Below are positions 1,126 to 35,220 of a stretch of DNA of 44,196 bases, one piece after another. Location of the stretch: the NCBI GenBank assembly GCA_947372425.1, contig CANBTQ010000002.1:1-44196 (forward strand). Reading direction: 5' to 3'. The notes beneath the pieces were generated by a model, which ran no database searches, was not told where the DNA came from, and saw nothing but the letters and a program-made list of their open reading frames with translations. This stretch comes from Comamonadaceae bacterium (GTDB taxonomy: Bacteria > Pseudomonadota > Gammaproteobacteria > Burkholderiales > Burkholderiaceae_C). Made by a program: the position numbers and the translations under genes. Numbering within the stretch: position 1 is the first letter of the stretch; each line of letters begins with the position of its first letter.

Positions 1126-2850
1126 ATGGAATCCAAAAAATACCCCTTCCGCCGCAGCCAGGCCTGGTTTGGCCGCAACGACAAAGACGGCTTTGTGCAC
1201 CGCAGCTGGATCAAGAACCAGGGCTATCCGCACGATGAACTCGATGGCCGCCCCGTCATCGGCATTTGCAACACCTGGAGCGAGCTGACCCCTTGCAACG
1301 GCCACTTCCGCGAGCTGGCCGAATTCGTCAAGCGCGGCGTGTACGAGGCCGGCGGCTTCCCGCTGGAATTCCCTGTGATGTCGCTGGGCGAAACCCAGCT
1401 ACGCCCCACCGCCATGCTGTTTCGCAACCTGGCCAGCATGGATGTGGAAGAAAGCATACGCGGCAACCCGATTGACGGTGTGGTGCTGCTCATGGGCTGC
1501 GACAAGACCACCCCCTCGCTCTTGATGGGCGCGGCCAGCTGCGACCTGCCGACCATCGGCATTTCCGGCGGCCCCATGCTCAACGGCAAGTTCCGTGGCA
1601 AGGACATCGGCTCCGGCACCGGCGTCTGGCAGATGTCGGAAATGGTGCGTGCCGGCGAGATGACGCAGGCCGATTTCACCGCCGCCGAATCCGATATGCA
1701 CCGCTCCAAGGGCAGCTGCATGACCATGGGCACGGCCAGCACCATGGCCAGCATGGTCGAAGCCCTGGGCATGTCCCTGCCCGAAAACGCCGCCATCCCG
1801 GCCGCCGACACAAGGCGCAACCGCCTGGCGCAAATGAGTGGACGCCGCATCGTCGAGATGGTGGAGCAGGACCTCAAGATGTCAAAGATCGTGACGCGCC
1901 AGTCCTTCGAGAACGCCATCCGCACCAACGCGGCCATTGGTGGCTCTACCAATGCGGTGATCCACCTCATCGCCATTGCCGGACGCATGGGCATCCAGCT
2001 GAACCTGGAAGACTGGGACAAGCTGGGCGCGCAAGTGCCCTGCCTGTTGAACCTGCAGCCTTCGGGCAAATACCTGATGGAAGATTTTTACTACGCCGGT
2101 GGCCTGCCCGCCGTACAGCGCGAAATCCAGAAGCTGCTGCACCTGGATGCGCTGACGGTCAATGGCAAGACCCTGGGCGACAACATTGCGCAAGCACCTT
2201 GCTACAACCGCGAAGTGATCAAGACGCCGGAAGAGCCCTTTATGAAGGACGCCGGCATTGCCGTGCTGCGCGGCAACCTGGCACCCAATGGCGCGGTCAT
2301 CAAGCCCTCGGCCGCCTCGGCCCATTTGCTGCAGCACCGCGGCCGCGCCGTGGTGTTTGAAAACATTGAAGACCTGCATGCGCGCATCGACAGCGACGAC
2401 CTGGACGTGGATGAAAACTGCGTCATGGTGCTGAAGAACTGCGGCCCGCGCGGCTACCCCGGCATGGCCGAGGTCGGCAATATGCCGCTGCCACCCAAGG
2501 TGCTGAAAAAAGGCATTACCGACATGGTGCGCATCAGCGACGGCCGCATGAGCGGCACGGCCTATGGCACGGTGGTACTGCACACCTCGCCTGAAGCGGC
2601 CGCTGGTGGCACGCTGGCCCTGGTGCAGAACGGCGACATGATTGAACTGGATGTGGCCGGACGCCGCCTGCACCTGGAGGTGAGCGACGAGGTGCTGGCC
2701 GAGCGCCGCAAGCTTTGGGTGGCGCCCGAAGCGCCCAAGCGCGGCTACCAGAAACTGTATGTGGAAACCGTGCAGCAGGCACACCTGGGTGCCGACCTGG
2801 ACTTTTTGGTCGGCGGCAGCGGCGCCGGCATTCCGCGCGACTCGCATTGA
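1126..2850 (+). CDS. IlvD/Edd family dehydratase, likely L-arabonate (pentonate) dehydratase
   Basis: 574 aa; GICNTWSELTPCN, MGCDKTTPSLLMGA, GSCMTMGTASTM, PRGYPGMAEVG motifs of the sugar-acid branch of IlvD/Edd; next to an AraD-type dehydratase and semialdehyde dehydrogenase. Confidence 0.88.
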   Translation: MESKKYPFRRSQAWFGRNDKDGFVHRSWIKNQGYPHDELDGRPVIGICNTWSELTPCNGHFRELAEFVKRGVYEAGGFPLEFPVMSLGETQLRPTAMLFRNLASMDVEESIRGNPIDGVVLLMGCDKTTPSLLMGAASCDLPTIGISGGPMLNGKFRGKDIGSGTGVWQMSEMVRAGEMTQADFTAAESDMHRSKGSCMTMGTASTMASMVEALGMSLPENAAIPAADTRRNRLAQMSGRRIVEMVEQDLKMSKIVTRQSFENAIRTNAAIGGSTNAVIHLIAIAGRMGIQLNLEDWDKLGAQVPCLLNLQPSGKYLMEDFYYAGGLPAVQREIQKLLHLDALTVNGKTLGDNIAQAPCYNREVIKTPEEPFMKDAGIAVLRGNLAPNGAVIKPSAASAHLLQHRGRAVVFENIEDLHARIDSDDLDVDENCVMVLKNCGPRGYPGMAEVGNMPLPPKVLKKGITDMVRISDGRMSGTAYGTVVLHTSPEAAAGGTLALVQNGDMIELDVAGRRLHLEVSDEVLAERRKLWVAPEAPKRGYQKLYVETVQQAHLGADLDFLVGGSGAGIPRDSH

Positions 2851-2867
2851 TTTTTACAAAGCACTGA

Positions 2868-4307
2868 ATGACACAAGAACACAACAATTTGATCAACGGT
2901 GAATGGGTGGCGGGCACGGGCTATACGCCCAACGTCAACCCATCCAACACCGCGGATGTGCAGGGCCATTACACGCAAGCCAGCGCGGCGCAATTGGACG
3001 ATGCCGTACAGGCCGCGCGTGCAGCGTTTGCCGCTTGGTCGGTCTCGGGCATCCAGGCGCGCGCTGATGCGCTGGACAAGATAGGCACCGAAATCCTGGC
3101 GCGACGCGAAGAGCTGGGCACGCTGCTAGCGCGCGAAGAGGGCAAAACCAAACCCGAGGGCGTTGGCGAAGCGGCGCGGGCCGGCAATATCTTCAAGTTC
3201 TTCGCCGGCGAATGCCTGCGCCTGGCCGGTGAAACCCTGCCCTCGGTGCGGCCCGGCATTGGTGTGGAAGTCACGCGCGAGCCGCTGGGCGTGATCGGCA
3301 TCATCACGCCCTGGAATTTTCCCATTGCCATCCCCGCCTGGAAGATTGCACCGGCCCTGGCCTATGGCAATTGCGTGGTCTTCAAGCCGGCCGATCTGGT
3401 GCCGGGCTGCGCCTGGGCGCTAGCCGAGATCATCAGCCGCAGCGGCATCCCCGCCGGTGTGTTCAACCTGGTGATGGGCCGTGGCAGCGTCATTGGTGAC
3501 CCCCTGGTCACCCACCCCGGGGTGGACGCCATCAGCTTCACCGGATCGCAAGCCGTGGGTAACCGCATTGCGCTGCAATGTGCCAACAGCCTGAAGAAGT
3601 TCCAGCTGGAAATGGGCGGCAAAAACCCGCAGGTAATTCTGGACGACGCCAACCTGGCGCAGGCCGTGGAACTCAGCGTGCAAAGCGCCTTTTTCTCCAC
3701 CGGCCAACGCTGCACGGCATCCAGCCGCCTGATCGTGACGGACGGCATTTATCCGCAGTTTGTTGAAGGCATGCAGGCGCGCATGGCCACGCTGAAGATT
3801 GGCGACGCGCTGGAGGCCGGCATCGACATCGGCCCGGTGGCCTCACTTGCGCAGCTGGAGCAGGACCTGGGTTATGTGGGCATCGCACAGGGCGAGGGCG
3901 CCACGCTGGTGTGCGGCGGCGAGCGTCTGCTGCGTGGCACCGAAGGCTTCTATATGCAGCCGGCGCTGATCACCGACACCACCGCTGCCATGCGCATCAA
4001 CCGCGAAGAAGTGTTCGGCCCGGTGGCCAGCATCATCCGCGTGAAGGACTACGACGCCGCACTGGCCGAGGCCAACAACACGCCCTTTGGCTTGTCGGCC
4101 GGCATTGCCACCAGCAGCCTGAAATACGCCACGCATTTCAAGCGCCATTCACAGGCCGGCATGGTGATGGTGAATCTGCCCACTGCCGGTGTGGACTACC
4201 ACGTGCCCTTTGGCGGGCGCAAGGGCTCCAGCTACGGCCCGCGCGAGCAGGGACGCTATGCGCAGGAGTTCTTCACCGTGGTGAAGACGGCCTACACGGG
4301 AATGTGA
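2868..4307 (+). CDS. Aldehyde dehydrogenase, likely alpha-ketoglutarate semialdehyde (2,5-dioxovalerate) dehydrogenase
   Basis: 479 aa; ITPWNFPIAIPAWKIAPAL, FTGSQAVG, LEMGGKNPQVI, GQRCTASSR motifs of the NAD(P) ALDH superfamily; pathway context. Confidence 0.88.
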   Translation: MTQEHNNLINGEWVAGTGYTPNVNPSNTADVQGHYTQASAAQLDDAVQAARAAFAAWSVSGIQARADALDKIGTEILARREELGTLLAREEGKTKPEGVGEAARAGNIFKFFAGECLRLAGETLPSVRPGIGVEVTREPLGVIGIITPWNFPIAIPAWKIAPALAYGNCVVFKPADLVPGCAWALAEIISRSGIPAGVFNLVMGRGSVIGDPLVTHPGVDAISFTGSQAVGNRIALQCANSLKKFQLEMGGKNPQVILDDANLAQAVELSVQSAFFSTGQRCTASSRLIVTDGIYPQFVEGMQARMATLKIGDALEAGIDIGPVASLAQLEQDLGYVGIAQGEGATLVCGGERLLRGTEGFYMQPALITDTTAAMRINREEVFGPVASIIRVKDYDAALAEANNTPFGLSAGIATSSLKYATHFKRHSQAGMVMVNLPTAGVDYHVPFGGRKGSSYGPREQGRYAQEFFTVVKTAYTGM

Positions 4308-4315
4308 GAAGCAAC

Positions 4316-5245
4316 ATGAACGCAAGACTGTCACCGCGCTACCAGGGCGTATTCCCGGTGGTGCCCACCACCTTTACCGAAACCGGCGCGCTGGATCTGG
4401 AGAGCCAGAAGCGCTGCGTCGATTTCATGATTGACGCGGGCTCCAACGGCCTGTGCATCCTGGCCAACTTCTCCGAGCAGTTTGTGCTGTCGGACGCAGA
4501 ACGCGAACTGCTGACGCGAACCATGCTGGAGCATGTGGCGGGCCGCGTGCCGGTGATCGTCACCACCACGCATTTCAGCTCCCTGGTCTGTGCCCAGCGC
4601 AGCAAGCAGGCGCAGGACCTGGGTGCGTCCATGGTGATGGTGATGCCGCCCTACCACGGTGCCACCTTCCGCGTGCCGGAGCCGCAGATCCACAGCTTCT
4701 ACCAGGCCGTGTCCGACGCCATCTCCATCCCCATCATGATCCAGGACGCGCCGGCCAGCGGCACCGTGCTTTCCGCCGCATTCCTGGCGCGCATGGCGCA
4801 GGAGATTGAGCAGGTGTCGTATTTCAAGATCGAAACGGCCGGTGCCGCGTCCAAGCTGCGCGAGCTGATTCGCCTGGGTGGCGCGGCCATTGAAGGCCCC
4901 TGGGACGGCGAGGAAGCCATCACGCTGATGCCGGATCTGGATGCTGGTGCCACCGGCGCCATGACCGGCGGCGGCTTCCCCGACGGCATCCGCAAAATCG
5001 TCGATGCGTACGCTGCAGGCCGCCGCGAAGACGCCGCACAGGCCTATCAGGAATGGCTGCCACTGATCAACTACGAGAACCGCCAGTGCGGTCTGCTGGC
5101 TGCCAAAGCGCTGATGAAAGAGGGCGGTGTGATTGCCTGCGAGGCACCGCGCCATCCGTTGCCATCCATGCATCCGGACACGCGTGCCGGACTGATCGAG
5201 ACCGCCAAGCGGCTGGATCCGCTGGTGTTGCGCTGGGGTCAGTAA
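4316..5245 (+). CDS. DHDPS/NAL family protein, likely L-2-keto-3-deoxyarabonate dehydratase
   Basis: 309 aa; GVFPVVPTTF, GSNGLCILANFSEQF, MVMPPYHGA, YFKIETAGA; closely resembles my recollection of the Azospirillum L-KDA dehydratase. Confidence 0.82.
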   Translation: MNARLSPRYQGVFPVVPTTFTETGALDLESQKRCVDFMIDAGSNGLCILANFSEQFVLSDAERELLTRTMLEHVAGRVPVIVTTTHFSSLVCAQRSKQAQDLGASMVMVMPPYHGATFRVPEPQIHSFYQAVSDAISIPIMIQDAPASGTVLSAAFLARMAQEIEQVSYFKIETAGAASKLRELIRLGGAAIEGPWDGEEAITLMPDLDAGATGAMTGGGFPDGIRKIVDAYAAGRREDAAQAYQEWLPLINYENRQCGLLAAKALMKEGGVIACEAPRHPLPSMHPDTRAGLIETAKRLDPLVLRWGQ

Positions 5246-5273
5246 ACAGCGGATTCGCCGGACCCGCTGCCCG

Positions 5274-5313
5274 CGGCTCCGTCTGGCCCATCGGCCGGAC
5301 GGAGCCGTTTTTT
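5274..5313 (+). terminator. Rho-independent terminator after the pentose operon
   Basis: CGGCTCCGTC...GACGGAGCCG 10-bp stem with inner GGCC/GGCC, followed by TTTTTT; between convergent genes. Confidence 0.85.
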
Positions 5314-6472
5314 ATACCGCCGTCCACGCCCCATCACGGGCATTGGAACGGATCACGGCGTCAACAAACTGCAAACCCAACAGGCCATCGGTAGCGCTGG
5401 GAAAATGCAGTGCCAGCGGCTCCGGCACTTTGCCGGCACGGCGCGCCGCAATGGCCTGCGCCGCATCCGAATAAAGATTGGCAAAGCCCTCATGAAAGCC
5501 CTCCGGATGGCCGGCAACGATGCGTGAAGCATGGGCCGACAGGGGCAGGGTACCGGGGCCGTTGGGCGTGCGCGTCTGCGCCGGCGCACCATGGGGTTTG
5601 AAGCTCAGCAGTTGTGGAATTTCCTGCTGCCATTCCAGCGTGCCCAGGGAACCACTCACGCGGATGCGCAGCGCGTTTTCCACGCCCGTAGCTGCCTGCG
5701 TCACCCAGAAGCTGCCGCGCGCGCCGTTGGACATGCGCAGCATGGCGCCAGCATAGTCATGCGTCACGCGGGTGGGTACCACGGTGCCAACCTCGGCCGC
5801 CACCTGGGCCACTTCCAGCCCGGTAACAAAGCGCAGCAGGTTGTGGGCATGGGTGCCAATATCACCCATCACCAACGACGGACCACCGCGTGCCGCATCG
5901 TCCTTCCAGGGCGAGCGCGAGACACCGGGCTGCGAACGGCCGCCCTGCACGTACTCCACCTGCACCAGGCGGATCTCACCCAGCTCGCCGGCTTCCACCA
6001 TGGCGCGGGCCTGGCGCACCATGGGATAGCCGGTGTAGTTATGCGTCAGACAAAACACCAGGCCACTGTCTTTCACCTTCTGCAACAGAGCCTGCGCCTC
6101 GTCCAGGGTGTTGGTCATGGGCTTGTCACAGATGACGTCCAGGCCGGCGCTCAGGGCCGCCATGGACAGCGGGAAGTGGCTGTCATTGGGCGTCATGATG
6201 GCAATCACGTCGGCACCATCGGCACGTGCTGCCTCGGCCGCAATCAACGTCTTGCCATCGGGATAGCAGCGCTCGGGCGCCAGTCCAAGCTCGCGTCCGG
6301 CCTGCACCGAGCGTTCGGCATGGGAGGACAGGCAGGCGGCGACCAAGTCGTAGCGGTCATCCAGGCGCGCCGCCTGGCGATGCATGGCGCCGATAAAGGA
6401 GCCGGGGCCGCCGCCGATCACGGCCAGACGCAAGCGCCGGCCCAACAAAGAAATCACGGGATTCAATGACAT
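5312..6472 (-). CDS. Gfo/Idh/MocA family oxidoreductase
   Basis: Rossmann motif LAVIGGGPGSFIGAMH, MTPNDSHF, CDKPM motif (EKP-like). Confidence 0.85.
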   Translation of the reverse strand: MSLNPVISLLGRRLRLAVIGGGPGSFIGAMHRQAARLDDRYDLVAACLSSHAERSVQAGRELGLAPERCYPDGKTLIAAEAARADGADVIAIMTPNDSHFPLSMAALSAGLDVICDKPMTNTLDEAQALLQKVKDSGLVFCLTHNYTGYPMVRQARAMVEAGELGEIRLVQVEYVQGGRSQPGVSRSPWKDDAARGGPSLVMGDIGTHAHNLLRFVTGLEVAQVAAEVGTVVPTRVTHDYAGAMLRMSNGARGSFWVTQAATGVENALRIRVSGSLGTLEWQQEIPQLLSFKPHGAPAQTRTPNGPGTLPLSAHASRIVAGHPEGFHEGFANLYSDAAQAIAARRAGKVPEPLALHFPSATDGLLGLQFVDAVIRSNARDGAWTAV

Positions 6473-11911: not shown

Positions 11912-12727
11912 TTATTTACCTCCGAACAGGCGCTTGAACAGACCTTGTTTGGGTGCCTCGATAAACCGCATCGGCTTGTCCTCACCCAGGAAGCGCGAAA
12001 TCACATCCTTGTAGGCCTCGGATACATCGCTGCCCTGAATGTGCACGGCCGGAACACCCTGGTTGGAAGCCTGCAATACGGATTCGCTCTCCGGTATCAC
12101 ACCGATTAGTGGAATGCGCAAAATGTCCTTGATGTCATCCAATGACAACATCTGACCCTGGTCCACCCGTGCCGGGTTGTAGCGGGTGATGAGCAAATGT
12201 TCCTTGATCGGATCCAGCCCGTCCATGGCCCGTTTTGTTTTGCTGGCCAGCATACCCAGGATGCGATCGGAATCCCGTACGGAGGACACTTCCGGGTTGG
12301 TAACCACCAGTGCTTCGTCGGCAAAGTGCATTGCCATCAGGGCGCCGGTCTCAATGCCTGCCGGCGAGTCACACACGATGAACTCAAAACCCATGGCAGC
12401 CAAATCCATCAGTACCTTTTCAACGCCATCTTGCGTGAGCGCATCCTTGTCACGGGTCTGCGACGCTGCCAGCACATACAGGTTTTCACACTGCTTGTCC
12501 TTGATCAGCGCTTGATTCAAATTGGCTTCACCATGGATGACATTGATCAGGTCGTACACCACACGGCGCTCACAACCCATGATCAGGTCCAGGTTGCGCA
12601 GACCCACATCAAAGTCGATCACAGCAGTCTTGTGCCCACGCAATGCCAGACCAGTTGCAAAGCTGGCGCTGGTGGTGGTTTTGCCCACACCGCCTTTGCC
12701 GGATGTCACCACGATGATTTTTGCCAT
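11912..12727 (-). CDS. minD: Septum site-determining protein MinD
   Basis: MAKIIVVTSGKGGVGKTTTSASFATGLALRGHKTAVIDFDVGLRNLDL; amphipathic C-terminus GLFKRLFGGK. Confidence 0.98.
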   Translation of the reverse strand: MAKIIVVTSGKGGVGKTTTSASFATGLALRGHKTAVIDFDVGLRNLDLIMGCERRVVYDLINVIHGEANLNQALIKDKQCENLYVLAASQTRDKDALTQDGVEKVLMDLAAMGFEFIVCDSPAGIETGALMAMHFADEALVVTNPEVSSVRDSDRILGMLASKTKRAMDGLDPIKEHLLITRYNPARVDQGQMLSLDDIKDILRIPLIGVIPESESVLQASNQGVPAVHIQGSDVSEAYKDVISRFLGEDKPMRFIEAPKQGLFKRLFGGK

Positions 12728-12758: not shown

Positions 12759-13529
12759 TCAGGTCTTCAGAGGCTCAATCAGCAGTTTGTCCTGCCCATC
12801 CTCACTGGAGAGACGAACCTGTGCCGGTTTGCCCGCAACATCAGCCGGCAACGGGTTTTCGCTGGTGCGATACACACCGGCGATGGAAATCAGTTCTGGC
12901 TCCAGACAGAGCGAAAAAATCCGCGCTGCACCGTTGCCACGGGCACCTGCCATGGCTTTGCCACGCAAGGGAGCATAGACATGGATATTGCCATCCGCCA
13001 CCACTTCAGCACCCTGGTTGACCATGGCCAACAACACCAGATCGCCACCCCGGGCATAAACTTTTTGGCCGGAGCGGATCGGCTTGTCAATCACCATCGT
13101 CCCAGGTCCCGGGACTTCCCGGATCACCGGTGCTACCGGTAATTCAGGCTTCGCCGCCAATTGGGCCAACTTGCTGATTTCCACCGGTCCACTGATCAGA
13201 CCAGCCTGCAGCAGTGGCTTTGTCCAGTGCACAGGTTCACCACGAAAAGCCAGCGGTACCAGGCGACAGTCACGCAGTGCCTGCAGCACAGAACCCATAT
13301 CGTCCCATTCCGCATTGCGCACCAAAGCCGAGAAATCCAGCACAACCGGATCTTGTTCAAAAAATTCCGGATTTTCGCCAGCCACACCAAATTGCCGTTG
13401 CAAATCGCTTGCTACGTCTTCCCAGCGATGGGACTTGAGCAACAAAGCTACCAGCGGTAGCTGGGCACTTTTGATTTCGAAACTCACATTGCTGCGTGAC
13501 GGGGATTGGCCTGTGGGCTTGACGGACAT
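12759..13529 (-). CDS. minC: Septum site-determining protein MinC
   Basis: 256 aa; C-terminal VYARGGDLVLLAMVNQGAEVVADGNIHVYAPLRGKAMAGARGN; order minC-minD-minE. Confidence 0.95.
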   Translation of the reverse strand: MSVKPTGQSPSRSNVSFEIKSAQLPLVALLLKSHRWEDVASDLQRQFGVAGENPEFFEQDPVVLDFSALVRNAEWDDMGSVLQALRDCRLVPLAFRGEPVHWTKPLLQAGLISGPVEISKLAQLAAKPELPVAPVIREVPGPGTMVIDKPIRSGQKVYARGGDLVLLAMVNQGAEVVADGNIHVYAPLRGKAMAGARGNGAARIFSLCLEPELISIAGVYRTSENPLPADVAGKPAQVRLSSEDGQDKLLIEPLKT

Positions 13530-13599
13530 GGGGAGGTTACTTGGCCTGGGGCTGCAAGGCTCGAATCTTACTTGATTGACATGCTCAAAACGATGGCGC

Positions 13600-13870
13600 C
13601 AAACAACAACATTTTTTGTTTTGCGCTTTGGGTTTTACTGTCTTCTTATCTTCTTTTTTATAAAAAGAATAGTAGTAGTAGATAGAAGAAAGGGCATTTC
13701 TGTGGACAAGCCTCTTTTCCAGATTGAAATCATGGACTTAGGGCACTCCAACCCGTGTTGGTGAGCACGCTTCCGAGGTGTATCGCGAAACTGGATAACT
13801 TGGCGTTGTTGCAGCAAGCTGTGGATAAGCTGCTGGTTGTGCGGGATCTATCCACAGCTTTGTACCTTGA
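13600..13870. other. Candidate replication origin (oriC-like): AT-rich region, DnaA-trio-like tract and DnaA boxes
   Basis: AT-rich 13631-13690 with TTCTTTTT-tat-AAAAAGAA; TAGx4 at 13670-13681; DnaA boxes TGTGGACAA 13701-13709, TGTGGATAA 13820-13828, CTATCCACA 13848-13856, weak ACTGGATAA 13790-13798. Confidence 0.7.
13816..13860. repeat. 12-bp perfect inverted repeat built on two DnaA boxes
   Basis: AAGCTGTGGATA (13816-13827) / TATCCACAGCTT (13849-13860), 21-nt spacer. Confidence 0.85.
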
Positions 13871-14021
13871 CACCTCTGGAAAAAGGAAAATGGCACATCT
13901 TTCCTTGGTCGCGAGTCTTTGGTGGTGTTAAATTGCCTTTCAGCGGATACTTGCCGAATTTTCCGCGCAGTCACGCTGGCGGGAAATCCGTTGGTCCCAA
14001 ACCCTGTGTTTTGTTGCACGA

Positions 14022-14047
14022 TTAGCTATTAAAAAGATAGCTGCTAG
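14022..14047. repeat. Short AGCTAT/ATAGCT palindromic element
   Basis: TTAGCTATTAAAAAGATAGCTGCTAG immediately before the GGDEF gene; resembles elements near 27440 and 33610. Confidence 0.4.
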
Positions 14048-14054
14048 CCAAGTT

Positions 14055-15611
14055 ATGAGCGATAAAAAATCTTTCGAAACTGCCCGGGAAACGCTTAAGC
14101 AACTGACTGCGCGCAAGCTTGCCCCCACCCCGGTGAACTACAAGGCGATCTACAACGAAATTGCCGGTATCCCGTCCATTGAACATTTTCCAGCGCAGGA
14201 ATTGCGTGGCATCTCGTCGGCATTGCAGGCCAAAACGCCCGGGCAGCAGCGACAAAAGGGCTTACTGGAATCATCCATAGACCGGATGAACTGGGATGGC
14301 GTGCGGTCGTCTCTGGTGGCTTATTGCGGTTTTGGCGGAAGTACTGTGGCCGAGCCGGGGACTGTGTCCAGCAGTTCCTCCGGCGGTGCCGCTGCTGATG
14401 TCGATGCTGTCCCTATTCCGATGGCGTCGGAGTTCTTATCCCAGATGGGGCGTTTGATTGAGTATGCGCAACCCGCATTGGGTGCGGACGACGAACGTTT
14501 CGCTGAACAGGGCAAGCAGTTGATCCGTGCGCTGAAGGAGCCGGACTTCGACATGGCCACAGTCAAACAGATGCTGGTGAACTACAGCCACCGTTTGTCT
14601 TTTGCCGCAGAAGACCAGTCAGAAATCAAGAAAGCGTTGCTCAAGCTATTGCATCTGGTGTTTGAAAACATCGGTGAACTCAGCGTGGAAGACCATTGGC
14701 TCAAAGGCCAGATGGACAGTCTGAAAACGGCCTCGGTACCACCGCTGAGCTTGCGCAGACTCGATGATGTGGAGCGCCTGTTGAAGGACGTGATCATCAA
14801 GCAGAAGGAGGCCAAGCAAAAGACCCTGCTTGCCCAGGATGAAATGCGCAGCATGCTGGCTTCCTTTATTGACAAGCTTTCGCAGATCACCCAGTCAACC
14901 GGGAGCTTCCAGGAAAAGTTGGAAGACAGTGCACGCCAGATCGAGAACGCAAAAACCCTTGCAGAAATTGCACCGGTGCTGAAGGAAGTGGTGGGTGCCA
15001 CGCGCAATATTGCCAGTGACACCTTGTCCACGCGCAATGAATTGCAGACCATGCGTGAGCAGGCCAACACAACGCAGGCGCAAATTGCCAAGTTGCACCA
15101 GGAACTCGACCGGGTCAGCACGCAGGCGCGCCATGATCCATTGACCGGTGCACTGAATCGCAAGGGTCTGGAAGAGGCGCTGGAACGTGAGATCTCAACC
15201 TTCCGCCGCAAGGAAACGCCGCTGAGCGTGGCTTTGCTGGACATTGATAATTTCAAGGCACTGAACGATTCTCTTGGCCACGCCATGGGAGATACGGCAT
15301 TGGCCCATCTGGCGCAGGTAGCACGTGAGTGCATGCGCCCGCAGGACACATTGGCCCGTTATGGCGGTGAAGAATTCGTAATTTTGCTGCCTGACACCTT
15401 GATGGACAAAGGTATAGAAGCCATGACCCGGTTGCAGCGGGAACTGACCAAGCGACTGTTTCTTGCAGGCACCGAGAAAGTACTGATTACCTTCAGCGCG
15501 GGTGTTGCACAGGTTGCCACGGAGGAGCCTGGCATGGATGCCATTCGCCGCGCAGACCAGGCTATGTACCTGGCCAAACGTTCGGGCAAGAACAGGGTTA
15601 TTGGAGCCTGA
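14055..15611 (+). CDS. GGDEF domain diguanylate cyclase
   Basis: DPLTGALNRKGLEEAL, DIDNFKALNDSLGHAMGD, RYGGEEFVILLP; RPQD inhibitory I-site 5 residues before GGEEF. Confidence 0.93.
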   Translation: MSDKKSFETARETLKQLTARKLAPTPVNYKAIYNEIAGIPSIEHFPAQELRGISSALQAKTPGQQRQKGLLESSIDRMNWDGVRSSLVAYCGFGGSTVAEPGTVSSSSSGGAAADVDAVPIPMASEFLSQMGRLIEYAQPALGADDERFAEQGKQLIRALKEPDFDMATVKQMLVNYSHRLSFAAEDQSEIKKALLKLLHLVFENIGELSVEDHWLKGQMDSLKTASVPPLSLRRLDDVERLLKDVIIKQKEAKQKTLLAQDEMRSMLASFIDKLSQITQSTGSFQEKLEDSARQIENAKTLAEIAPVLKEVVGATRNIASDTLSTRNELQTMREQANTTQAQIAKLHQELDRVSTQARHDPLTGALNRKGLEEALEREISTFRRKETPLSVALLDIDNFKALNDSLGHAMGDTALAHLAQVARECMRPQDTLARYGGEEFVILLPDTLMDKGIEAMTRLQRELTKRLFLAGTEKVLITFSAGVAQVATEEPGMDAIRRADQAMYLAKRSGKNRVIGA

Positions 15612-28769: not shown

Positions 28770-28946
28770 CCCGTGACTATTGCACGGGAGCCTGCGTAAG
28801 GGCTAGAGCCCTCCGCCTAGAGCGGCTCGGGGTTTGCCCAGGCAAGCCATGGCGTGTGCCTGGTTTTGGGGCAGCCGGTAGAATCAGCGCCTCTCCCCCT
28901 GGCTTTTTGCGCCCTGCGTTCTGCACCGCGCCCCATTGGATCCACC

Positions 28947-31030
<2,084 letters not shown>

Positions 31031-31034
<4 letters not shown>

Positions 31035-31711
31035 CCAAGCCGTTGGAATTGGAATTGCGCGCCGGTATTCGGGCACTGGGCCTTGATTTGTCGGATGCCC
31101 AGGTGGCGCAGCTGCTGGCGTATCAGGACTTGATCCAGAAGTGGACCAAGGTCTACAACCTGACGGCGGTACGTGATCCGGCCGAGATGCTGACGCACCA
31201 TTTGCTGGATAGCCTGGCGGTGGTGTTGCCCTTGCAGAAGCAGCTGACGGCTATGCGAGCCGCAGGCGCTTTTGCTGTGGGTGCTCCGGTGCGTTTGCTG
31301 GATGTGGGCTCGGGTGCAGGCCTGCCGGGCGCGGTGATCGCCATCTGCTGTCCGCAAGTCAACGTGCATTGTGTGGATACGGTCGCCAAGAAGGCTGCCT
31401 TTATTCAGCAGGTGGCAGTGTCTTTGCGGTTGCCCAATCTGCGCGGCATCCATGCACGTGTGGAAAATCTGACTGACACCTACGACGTGGTGAGTTCGCG
31501 CGCCTTTGCCTCGCTGCCGGATTTTGTGACCTGGTCGCTGAAGTGCCTGGCAGAGCAGGGCGTCTGGATGGCGATGAAGGGCAAACACCCTGCCGATGAA
31601 ATTGCTGCACTGCCTGCCGGCGTGGAAGTGTTTCACGTGGAACCGTTGGTCGTTCCTGGCTTGGACGCGGAGCGCTGCATCCTGTGGTTGCGTTCAGGTG
31701 TGCTTGTCTGA
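31031..31711 (+). CDS. rsmG: 16S rRNA (guanine(527)-N(7))-methyltransferase RsmG (GidB)
   Basis: [51 protein letters not shown]; overlaps mnmG by 4 bp. Confidence 0.97.
31629..31644. promoter_or_regulatory. parS-like site (inside rsmG)
   Basis: TGTTTCACGTGGAACC, 14/16 to parS consensus. Confidence 0.75.
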
Positions 31712-31748
31712 CCCTTTGTTGGTCGCCTGCATCTGTTCTGGATCCGGC

Positions 31749-31825
31749 GGGCTGGGCACTCTACGCCGCGGCTGTCTCCCGGCCTTCGGCCTCCTCTTTA
31801 TGCTACTGCGCAGAGCACCCAACCC
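31749..31825. repeat. Imperfect inverted-repeat element in the rsmG-lysE gap
   Basis: GGGCTGGGCACTCT (31749-31762) vs reverse complement of AGAGCACCCAACCC (31812-31825), 11/14 match. Confidence 0.4.
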
Positions 31826-31868
31826 ACCTGATCTGAGGTGGGCTCTTGCATGCCAGTGAAAGAGCCAC

Positions 31869-31884
31869 TGTTTCACGTGGAACC
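31869..31884. promoter_or_regulatory. parS-like site (intergenic)
   Basis: TGTTTCACGTGGAACC, identical to the site in rsmG. Confidence 0.78.
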
Positions 31885-32136: not shown

Positions 32137-32751
32137 ATGCTCGGCGTTACCGACTACGGCACCTTTGTCGTTACTGTGATTGTGTTTTTGGCAATCCCTG
32201 GTCCGGGCAATCTGGCCCTGGTCACCAGCACCAGCAAGGGCGGCATTGCTGGCGGGCTGGCGGCGACCTTTGGCGTGATTCTGGGTGACCAGGTGCTGAT
32301 GTGGTCGGCCGTGGCCGGTGTGGCGGCCCTGCTGATTGCCTATCCCGATGCTTTCTCGGCGGTGCAGTGGTTTGGCGCCGCCTACCTGGCATGGCTGGGT
32401 GTCAAGATGCTGCTGGCCAAGCCGGGCGCTGCGCCGGTCATCAACATCAAGCCCCGCCACTACCTGCGCCAGGCCTTGATGATCACCTTGCTCAATCCCA
32501 AGGCCATCCTGTTTTACATGGCCTTCTTTCCGCTGTTTGTGGATCCGGTACGCCAGCAGGGACTGGTTACCTATGCCTTTATGGCGGCCACCATCGCCGG
32601 ACTGACATTTTTGTATGGACTGGGCGCCACACTGTTGACGCACTTTCTGGCCGAACGTGTGCGCGCCAACCCCATGATCGGGCGGGTACTGGAGAAAGTT
32701 GCCGGTACCTTCCTGGTCGGCTTTGGCATCAAGCTGGCGCTTTCCAAATGA
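32137..32751 (+). CDS. LysE family translocator
   Basis: VIVFLAIPGPGNLALVTSTSKGGIAGGLAATFGVILGDQVLM. Confidence 0.92.
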   Translation: MLGVTDYGTFVVTVIVFLAIPGPGNLALVTSTSKGGIAGGLAATFGVILGDQVLMWSAVAGVAALLIAYPDAFSAVQWFGAAYLAWLGVKMLLAKPGAAPVINIKPRHYLRQALMITLLNPKAILFYMAFFPLFVDPVRQQGLVTYAFMAATIAGLTFLYGLGATLLTHFLAERVRANPMIGRVLEKVAGTFLVGFGIKLALSK

Positions 32752-32795
32752 CGAACGCAGACCTGAACGCAACACCTGCAGGGGACACCAAACGC

Positions 32796-33581
32796 ATGGC
32801 CAAGATATTCTGCATTGCCAACCAAAAGGGCGGGGTGGGCAAGACCACCACCACAGTCAATCTGGCGGCCGGTCTGGCCAAGGTTGGGCAGCGCGTGCTG
32901 ATGATTGATCTGGACCCGCAGGGCAATGCCACCATGGGTTCGGGTGTCGACAAGCGCAAACTGGAGCTCACGGTGTATGACGTGCTGCTGGAGTCCGCTT
33001 CCATCACCGAAGCGCGCGTGCAAAGCGACAAGCTCAAGGCAGCCGGTTGCGGCTACGATATTTTGGGCGCCAACCGGGAACTGGCCGGCGCCGAGGTGGA
33101 ACTGGTGGAAGTGGAGCGGCGTGAGCGCCGCCTCAAGGCAGCCATCGCCGCGGTGCAAACCGAATACGACTTTGTGTTGATCGACTGCCCGCCCTCGCTG
33201 TCGATGCTGACGCTCAACGGTCTGTGCTGTGCCCATGGCGTGATCGTGCCCATGCAGTGCGAATACTTTGCGCTCGAAGGCCTGACCGATCTGGTCAACA
33301 CCATCAAGCAGGTCAAGGCCAATCTGAACGACGACCTGCAGATCATCGGCCTGCTGCGCGTGATGTTTGATCCGCGTATCACCCTGCAGCAACAGGTCAG
33401 CGACCAGCTCAAGGCGCACTTTGCCGACAAGGTGTTCAACACCGTCATTCCGCGCAATGTGCGCCTGGCCGAGGCGCCCAGCTATGGCGTGCCGGGGGTG
33501 GTCTTCGACATTCATTCCAAGGGTGCGCAGGCTTTTGTGGCTTTTGCCCAGGAGATGGTTGCGCGCATCCAGGTCATGTAG
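32796..33581 (+). CDS. parA: Chromosome partitioning ATPase ParA/Soj
   Basis: MAKIFCIANQKGGVGKTTTTVNLAAGLAKVGQRVLMIDLDPQGNATMGSG; start chosen at 32796. Confidence 0.97.
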   Translation: MAKIFCIANQKGGVGKTTTTVNLAAGLAKVGQRVLMIDLDPQGNATMGSGVDKRKLELTVYDVLLESASITEARVQSDKLKAAGCGYDILGANRELAGAEVELVEVERRERRLKAAIAAVQTEYDFVLIDCPPSLSMLTLNGLCCAHGVIVPMQCEYFALEGLTDLVNTIKQVKANLNDDLQIIGLLRVMFDPRITLQQQVSDQLKAHFADKVFNTVIPRNVRLAEAPSYGVPGVVFDIHSKGAQAFVAFAQEMVARIQVM

Positions 33582-33630: not shown

Positions 33631-34218
33631 ATGAAATTTCCGGAACCCATGTCCACTCCCAACATCCTGATTCTTCCTGGCTGGCAAAACTCCGGCCCAG
33701 CCCATTGGCAAAGCCGTTGGGAAGCGCTGTATGGCGATGTGCGCGTCGAGCAGCACGACTGGATGCGGCCGCTGCGCGGCGACTGGATTGCGCGCCTGGA
33801 AGATGTACTGCTGTCACAAACCGGCCCCAGCCTGTTGGTCTGCCATAGCCTGGGTTGCATGCTGACCGCCGCCTGGGCTTCGCACTCGCGCAACACGCAT
33901 TTGGTTGCCGGTGCCTTGCTGGTGGCACCGGGCGATCCAGATACAGAAATGGGGCAATCCAACTTCCCAAGCTTTGCGCCCGTTGCCATGCGCCAACTGC
34001 CGTTCTCCAGCATCGTGGTGGCCAGTCGCGATGACCCATTCACACAATTCGCGCGTGCCCGCAGCTTTGCCGATGCCTGGGGCTCGGAATTTATCGACTA
34101 TGGCGCACGCGGCCATATCAATGCCGAGTCCGGCCTGGGCGATTGGCCCGAGGGCCGCACGCTGCTGGCCCGGCTCGGCGACAGCCGGGCTGTCACACCC
34201 CAACCCAACCCGAACTAA
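33631..34218 (+). CDS. RBBP9/YdeN family alpha/beta hydrolase
   Basis: ILILPGWQNSGPAHWQSRWE, LLVCHSLGCMLTAAWA nucleophile motif, GHINAESGLGDWPEG. Confidence 0.92.
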   Translation: MKFPEPMSTPNILILPGWQNSGPAHWQSRWEALYGDVRVEQHDWMRPLRGDWIARLEDVLLSQTGPSLLVCHSLGCMLTAAWASHSRNTHLVAGALLVAPGDPDTEMGQSNFPSFAPVAMRQLPFSSIVVASRDDPFTQFARARSFADAWGSEFIDYGARGHINAESGLGDWPEGRTLLARLGDSRAVTPQPNPN

Positions 34219-34233
34219 GAAGGAAAACAAAAC

Positions 34234-35220
34234 ATGGTCACCAAAAAACCCAAGGGTCTGGGCATGGGTCTGGAAGCATTGCTGGGCCCCAAGGTCAAGG
34301 AAACCACCAACCTGGACGGCACGGCAGTCACGCCGGATCTGCCCAGCACCTTGAAGCTCGACGACATGGTGGCCGGCCAGTACCAGCCACGCACCCACAT
34401 GGACGAGGGCGCCTTGTATGAGCTGGCCGAGAGCATCAAGGCCCAGGGCATCATGCAGCCGATACTCGTGCGTCGCCTGACTGATGAGCAGGCCTTGGCC
34501 AAGCGCCAGGCGCAGGACCCAAACGGGGCAGTCGGTAGCGGCACCGCGCACCCGTTGTACGAAATCATTGCCGGCGAGCGCCGCTTCCGCGCTGCCAAGT
34601 TGGCCGGGTTGGACAGCGTGCCGGTACTGGTGCGCGACGTGCCGGACCAGGCCGCTGCCGCCATGGCGCTGATTGAGAACATGCAGCGCGAGGACCTCAA
34701 TCCGCTGGAAGAAGCACAGGGTCTGCAGCGCCTGATCAAGGAATTCGGCCTGACGCACGAGACCGCCGCCCAGGCTGTAGGCCGCTCGCGTAGCGCCGCC
34801 AGCAACCTGCTGCGCCTGCTGAATCTGGCCGACCCGGTGCAGACCATGCTGATGGCCGGTGACATTGACATGGGCCATGCCCGCGCCCTGCTGGCGCTGG
34901 ACCGTGCCACGCAGATTACCGCTGCGAGCCAGATTGCCACCAAAAAAATGTCGGTGCGCGAAGCCGAGAGCCTGGTCAAGAAGCTGAGTGCCGAGTTTTC
35001 GCTCACCAGCCCCAAGCCCAAGAAAGAGAAATCGCGCGACCTCAAACGTGTGGAAGAAGAACTCTCCGATTTGCTGATGGCGCAGGTGGATGTGCATATC
35101 AAAAAACGCGTAAAGCGCAACGGGCGCATGGAAGACATGGGCGAACTGGTGATCCAGTTCGGTTCGCTGGACGAGCTCAACGGGCTGATCGAGCGTCTCT
35201 CGCCCGGCGTGACCCGCTAA
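34234..35220 (+). CDS. parB: Chromosome partitioning protein ParB/Spo0J
   Basis: GLGMGLEALLG, QYQPRTHMDEGALYELAESIKAQGIMQPILVR, GERRFRAAKLAG, HTH GRSRSAASNLLRLL. Confidence 0.97.
   Translation: MVTKKPKGLGMGLEALLGPKVKETTNLDGTAVTPDLPSTLKLDDMVAGQYQPRTHMDEGALYELAESIKAQGIMQPILVRRLTDEQALAKRQAQDPNGAVGSGTAHPLYEIIAGERRFRAAKLAGLDSVPVLVRDVPDQAAAAMALIENMQREDLNPLEEAQGLQRLIKEFGLTHETAAQAVGRSRSAASNLLRLLNLADPVQTMLMAGDIDMGHARALLALDRATQITAASQIATKKMSVREAESLVKKLSAEFSLTSPKPKKEKSRDLKRVEEELSDLLMAQVDVHIKKRVKRNGRMEDMGELVIQFGSLDELNGLIERLSPGVTR

Follow-up and report, generated by a model that had tools for sequence, protein, structure and literature searches.

Genes and motifs at the locus

The window, by which we mean the whole stretch of 44,196 nucleotides, is one contig (C2) of a MAG that comprises 387 contigs and is 77% complete. 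The MAG was treated as Rhodoferax, since the closest named relative of its GGDEF gene is found in Rhodoferax lacus, with 82% identity. The region under study is the gap at 13530-14054, and its neighbours, originally called as minC and a GGDEF gene, were confirmed by their Pfam domains. The genes and features of the window are as follows.

11912-12727: minD, following minC
12759-13529, minus strand: minC, left neighbour of the gap (Pfam MinC_N and MinC_C)
13640-13669, unstranded: AT-rich presumed DNA unwinding element, called from composition and AT-rich in all relatives aligned
13670-13681, plus strand: TAGTAGTAGTAG, four perfect DnaA-trio repeats (5'-TAG-3', equal to 3'-GAT-5'), called as a conserved motif
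13701-13709, minus strand: putative DnaA box TTGTCCACA (TGTGGACAA on the plus strand), one mismatch, pointing at the trio
13728-13740, plus strand: IHF-like site AATCATGGACTTA, matching a relaxed IHF consensus
13790-13798, minus strand: weak DnaA box, presumably of low affinity (ACTGGATAA on the plus strand), with a conserved GNATAA core
13820-13828, minus strand: putative DnaA box TTATCCACA (read as TGTGGATAA at 13820-13828), exact consensus
13848-13856, plus strand: inverted putative DnaA box CTATCCACA, one mismatch
14055-15611, plus strand: diguanylate cyclase gene, right neighbour of the gap (Pfam GGDEF)
28854-31711, plus strand: mnmG and rsmG
30434, 31630 and 31870: parS sites
32301-33581, plus strand: open reading frame of parA, presumed chromosome partition gene
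34234-35220, plus strand: parB, presumed chromosome partition gene

A LysE-type transporter gene (32137-32751) is located between rsmG and parA, and a serine-hydrolase gene (33631-34218) between parA and parB. The original prediction had noted a nearby parS/parAB cluster and the absence of dnaA, and both observations hold. The parS sites (30434-31883), parA and parB all lie within the window, and dnaA was found on another contig (C68), where it is cut off by the contig end.

The trio and the three boxes were recovered at exactly the positions first proposed for them, and the weak box was confirmed as well. From left to right, the gap contains the AT-rich stretch, TAGTAGTAGTAG, a box on the minus strand, the IHF-like site, the weak box, the consensus box on the minus strand and the inverted box. 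The proposed order of DnaA box, spacer, DnaA-trio and unwinding element was confirmed, and it is repeated in relatives at fixed spacing. The GC content is 23% in the AT-rich stretch (13640-13682), 46% in the whole gap and 62% in the window. Thus, the gap carries a DnaA-box cluster beside an AT-rich unwinding-type element, as is expected of an oriC. It also carries the elements of a BUS-type origin, which are a DnaA box, a short spacer and at least three trios with a central A, in the form of four perfect TAG repeats. Box 13701 is separated from the perfect trios by 19 nt, or by fewer when degenerate trios are included.

Isolated motifs like these do arise by chance in the window, which could favour a chance cluster in an AT-rich gap. 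On the other hand, three boxes within 160 bp or a four-unit trio were found in none of 300 order-1 simulated windows and in none of 20,000 simulated 525-bp gaps having the gap's own composition, and the arrangement is conserved throughout the family. We consider that the chance explanation has a negligible probability and count it as already refuted.

Conservation and position of the module

The motifs form a module that is also present in the gap preceding minC in relatives. Its spacing is constant, with distances of 31 from trio to box, 119 between the boxes and 28 from box to inverted box, and the same arrangement is seen next to minC throughout the genus. Conservation is highest in the trio, in the boxes including the weak one, and in the core of the IHF-like site. 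The position of box 13701 is conserved, and its sequence is looser than that of the other boxes. A match to the relaxed IHF consensus was present at the IHF-like position in 26 of 32 module copies. In three well-assembled Rhodoferax genomes, the 400-kb region surrounding dnaA contained no array of at least three units other than the module trio, which coincided with the top-ranked DnaA-box cluster of this region.

A search model built from 21 module copies, using sequence only, matched 381 of the 400 high-quality genomes searched from the GTDB family, representing 114 of 115 genera, usually with one copy. Outside the family the matches became weaker. At the level of the order, 82 of 250 genomes matched, and a sample covering the phylum gave matches in 9 of 120 genomes, three of which were family members; the six matches among the 117 genomes outside the family were weak (best E 9e-8). 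Conservation and one copy per chromosome, which are expected of an oriC, were thus observed, with the module single-copy in every Rhodoferax genome of this search and with two to four copies in part of the 381 family genomes. Tandem pairs 300-800 bp apart were seen in six genomes (G203, G219, G283, G454, G071, G456) and inverted pairs 2-46 kb apart in six others (G323, G368, G194, G266, G293, G344). In one Rhodoferax locus (L092, genome G015), another group of boxes, accompanied by one TAGTAG, was observed about 450 bp past the first module, downstream of the minC start.

The position of the module was surveyed for 92 copies in 80 genomes of 28 genera, which were chosen as the strongest matches and are not a random sample. 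The dnaA-dnaN gap harbored 36 of the 92 copies (14 of 28 genera), while 20 were upstream of minC (5 of 28 genera), another 20 were elsewhere on the dnaA contig, and the remaining 16, belonging to neither the dnaA-dnaN nor the minC class, were on contigs without dnaA. At the loci fetched, the flanking genes were consistent with these classes. Among the 30 single-contig genomes, the module was at dnaA-dnaN in 10 and displaced by about 14-300 kb from dnaA in 20. G158, which has two copies, one of them just upstream of dnaA, was counted among these 20 at a distance of 14 kb. No genome among the matches listed had the module both at dnaA-dnaN and upstream of minC, a result that would overlook copies scoring below these matches.

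The original prediction regarded the rpmH-dnaA interval as the usual betaproteobacterial place of oriC. In this family, the dnaA-side place of the module is dnaA-dnaN instead, and comparison of the region upstream of dnaA, which had been proposed as a check, showed that the rpmH-dnaA gap lacks a trio and has no more than two boxes. The dnaA-dnaN gap is 217-350 bp long when it contains the module and 36-181 bp long otherwise (89-128 bp in Rhodoferax), and trios were absent from the dnaA-dnaN gaps lacking the module, including those of the Rhodoferax genomes examined. An origin beside dnaA was rejected, because the rpmH-dnaA gap has no trio, the short dnaA-dnaN gap has no module, and the GC skew is against dnaA. 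In the rpmH-dnaA gap on contig C68 (L113), two DnaA boxes 40 bp apart occur just upstream of dnaA and are kept in most relatives; they are candidates for dnaA autoregulation.

These boxes upstream of dnaA, together with the location of the gap between two divergent genes, are in line with another explanation, namely that the gap is an extra DnaA-controlled site, serving DnaA titration or reactivation or the regulation of minC and the GGDEF gene, and that the real origin is at dnaA. We consider this explanation unlikely. The gap has both the trio and the AT-rich unwinding-type stretch, whereas the dnaA-side regions have neither, and the same module occupies dnaA-dnaN in other genera. Moreover, the module recurs beside minC in relatives having no GGDEF gene in the fetched stretch, and also away from minC. 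DnaA regulatory sites of the datA/DARS type have no unwinding element and exist beside a separate full origin. The gap was rejected as such a site, as it contains the AT-rich element and the trio; in three relatives, the 400 kb surrounding dnaA contained no other comparable site.

GC skew and the link to parAB

In the three Rhodoferax genomes G007, G034 and G001, the raw cumulative skew reached its minimum between dnaA and the module, at a distance of 27-31 kb from the former and 20-28 kb from the latter. A minimum elsewhere than at the gap had been named in advance as an argument against an origin there. The minimum was not at dnaA, and its distance of 20-28 kb from the module counts against an origin at the module. 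Corrected skew, which is the third-position skew adjusted for gene strand, rejected dnaA in all three genomes with a penalty of 13-20 twice-log-likelihood units, which also speaks against the extra-site explanation. It preferred 28-38 kb and penalised the module by 4.5-8 units. Over a wider range, the penalties were 21-23 for dnaA and 6-12 for the module.

Since raw and unfiltered corrected skew point to the same region in all three genomes, the true origin could be placed at the minimum of the raw skew, some 30 kb from dnaA, with the module being a secondary site. We regard this as very improbable. There is no DnaA-box cluster or trio at the raw minimum, and the region preferred by the corrected skew adjoins a series of catabolic genes, nearly all in one orientation, which lies 28-47 kb from dnaA, between dnaA and the module, and has an unusual GC skew. 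Without 28-47 kb, the fit moved to the module or to within error of it, with the switch at 55, 51 and 69 kb and the module at 55, 51 and 59-60 kb in G007, G034 and G001, respectively. The exclusion of this island was chosen after seeing the data, so the skew is strong evidence against dnaA and only moderate evidence for the module. Taken together, the skew moderately supports the module as the origin and is not decisive.

In two further genomes (G118 and G254), the strand-corrected skew was too weak to favour either position. In a genome presumed to be R. ferrireducens, for which dif has been published at 2,472,550 (PMC2731167), the arms to dif were somewhat more even from the module (40.7 kb) than from dnaA, which weakly supports the module as the origin.

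The parS sites of the window are 17-18 kb from the module, so that the gap is close to parS/parAB, as expected of an oriC. The module was nearer to parB than dnaA was in all 20 displaced genomes, with median distances of 30 and 102 kb; a sign test without correction for relatedness gave p = 2e-6. It is known that parS sites usually mark origin-proximal DNA. This closeness therefore supports the module as the origin.

The module as a probable displaced oriC

The family-wide conservation of the module, its single copy in Rhodoferax, its counterpart at dnaA-dnaN elsewhere and its closeness to parAB favour the reading of the gap as an origin. We suggest that the gap at 13530-14054 is very probably the chromosomal oriC of this Rhodoferax, which has moved away from dnaA. 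Of the two options offered by the original prediction, a main oriC separated from dnaA is thus strongly favoured, since the conserved single-copy module replaces the dnaA-dnaN module and lies near parAB.

From the motifs, DnaA is expected to bind the boxes at 13820 and 13848, and an IHF bend near 13728 would help DnaA to load from box 13701 onto the TAG repeats on one strand. The DnaA filament would extend along the TAG strand from box 13701, the AT-rich stretch would melt, and the helicase would then be loaded. That DnaA and IHF bind, that the strands open and that the origin fires at the module is inferred by analogy with B. subtilis (PMC6669920) and E. coli (PMC4285127).

The oriC/BUS of Bacillus subtilis likewise has a DnaA box facing TAG repeats and then an AT-rich stretch (PMC6669920, PMC8287927), and it is located at dnaA-dnaN, as is the module in many related genera. 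The module of the window differs in lying far from dnaA, in having an IHF-like site and in having one box by the trio, not two. Two points count against the reading of the gap as an origin, as the trio-proximal box 13701 is not an exact consensus and the 19-nt spacer to the perfect trios exceeds the 16-nt maximum of the published search, unless degenerate trios are included. The oriC of Escherichia coli has the order AT-rich element, DnaA box, IHF site and further boxes, and the same order is seen in the module. That origin is also away from dnaA (PMC4285127), and its IHF site is GATCAACAACCTG, as compared with AATCATGGACTTA in the module. Unlike it, the module has minC and the GGDEF gene as neighbours, a strong trio array and fewer strong boxes.

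In another member of the Burkholderiales, Cupriavidus metallidurans CH34, the putative origin of chromosome 1 was placed at a GC-skew transition about 90 kb from dnaA, adjoining a 213-nt stretch with three perfect DnaA boxes (PMC2864759). This site, likened here by its published description only, is similar as a suspected origin away from dnaA, but it concerns a single genome with no described trio or family comparison. The minC-side location and the family-wide movement of the module are new, while the architecture is of a known kind. None of the papers searched describes the minC site or movement of the module, and origin databases such as DoriC may list some of the sites.

We tentatively propose that the oriC of the family may be a compact 200-bp module that has moved several times, between dnaA-dnaN, the region upstream of minC and other places as far as about 300 kb from dnaA, with its closeness to parAB kept. 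Such moves could perhaps have passed through two-copy stages (tandem or inverted, up to 46 kb apart), and some chromosomes may have two potential origins. Origins are often taken to sit at dnaA, and it is common to open genome sequences at this gene. In a studied Burkholderia, B. cenocepacia, the precise location of oriC1 was described as uncertain (PMC4948915). With a sequence model that detects the module in almost all genomes of the family, plasmid construction, marker-frequency studies and growth-rate estimation have a direct target. The model also makes origin movement testable, as to which moves take place, whether two copies can exist together and whether the moves are limited by the need to stay near parAB.

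The catabolic block between dnaA and the module includes dehydratase, aldehyde dehydrogenase, DapA-like and Gfo/Idh-like genes, some of these names being given from sequence appearance only, and sugar ABC transporter genes are also present in the block of relatives. Relatives of some genes of the block are found in the window at 1126-6472.
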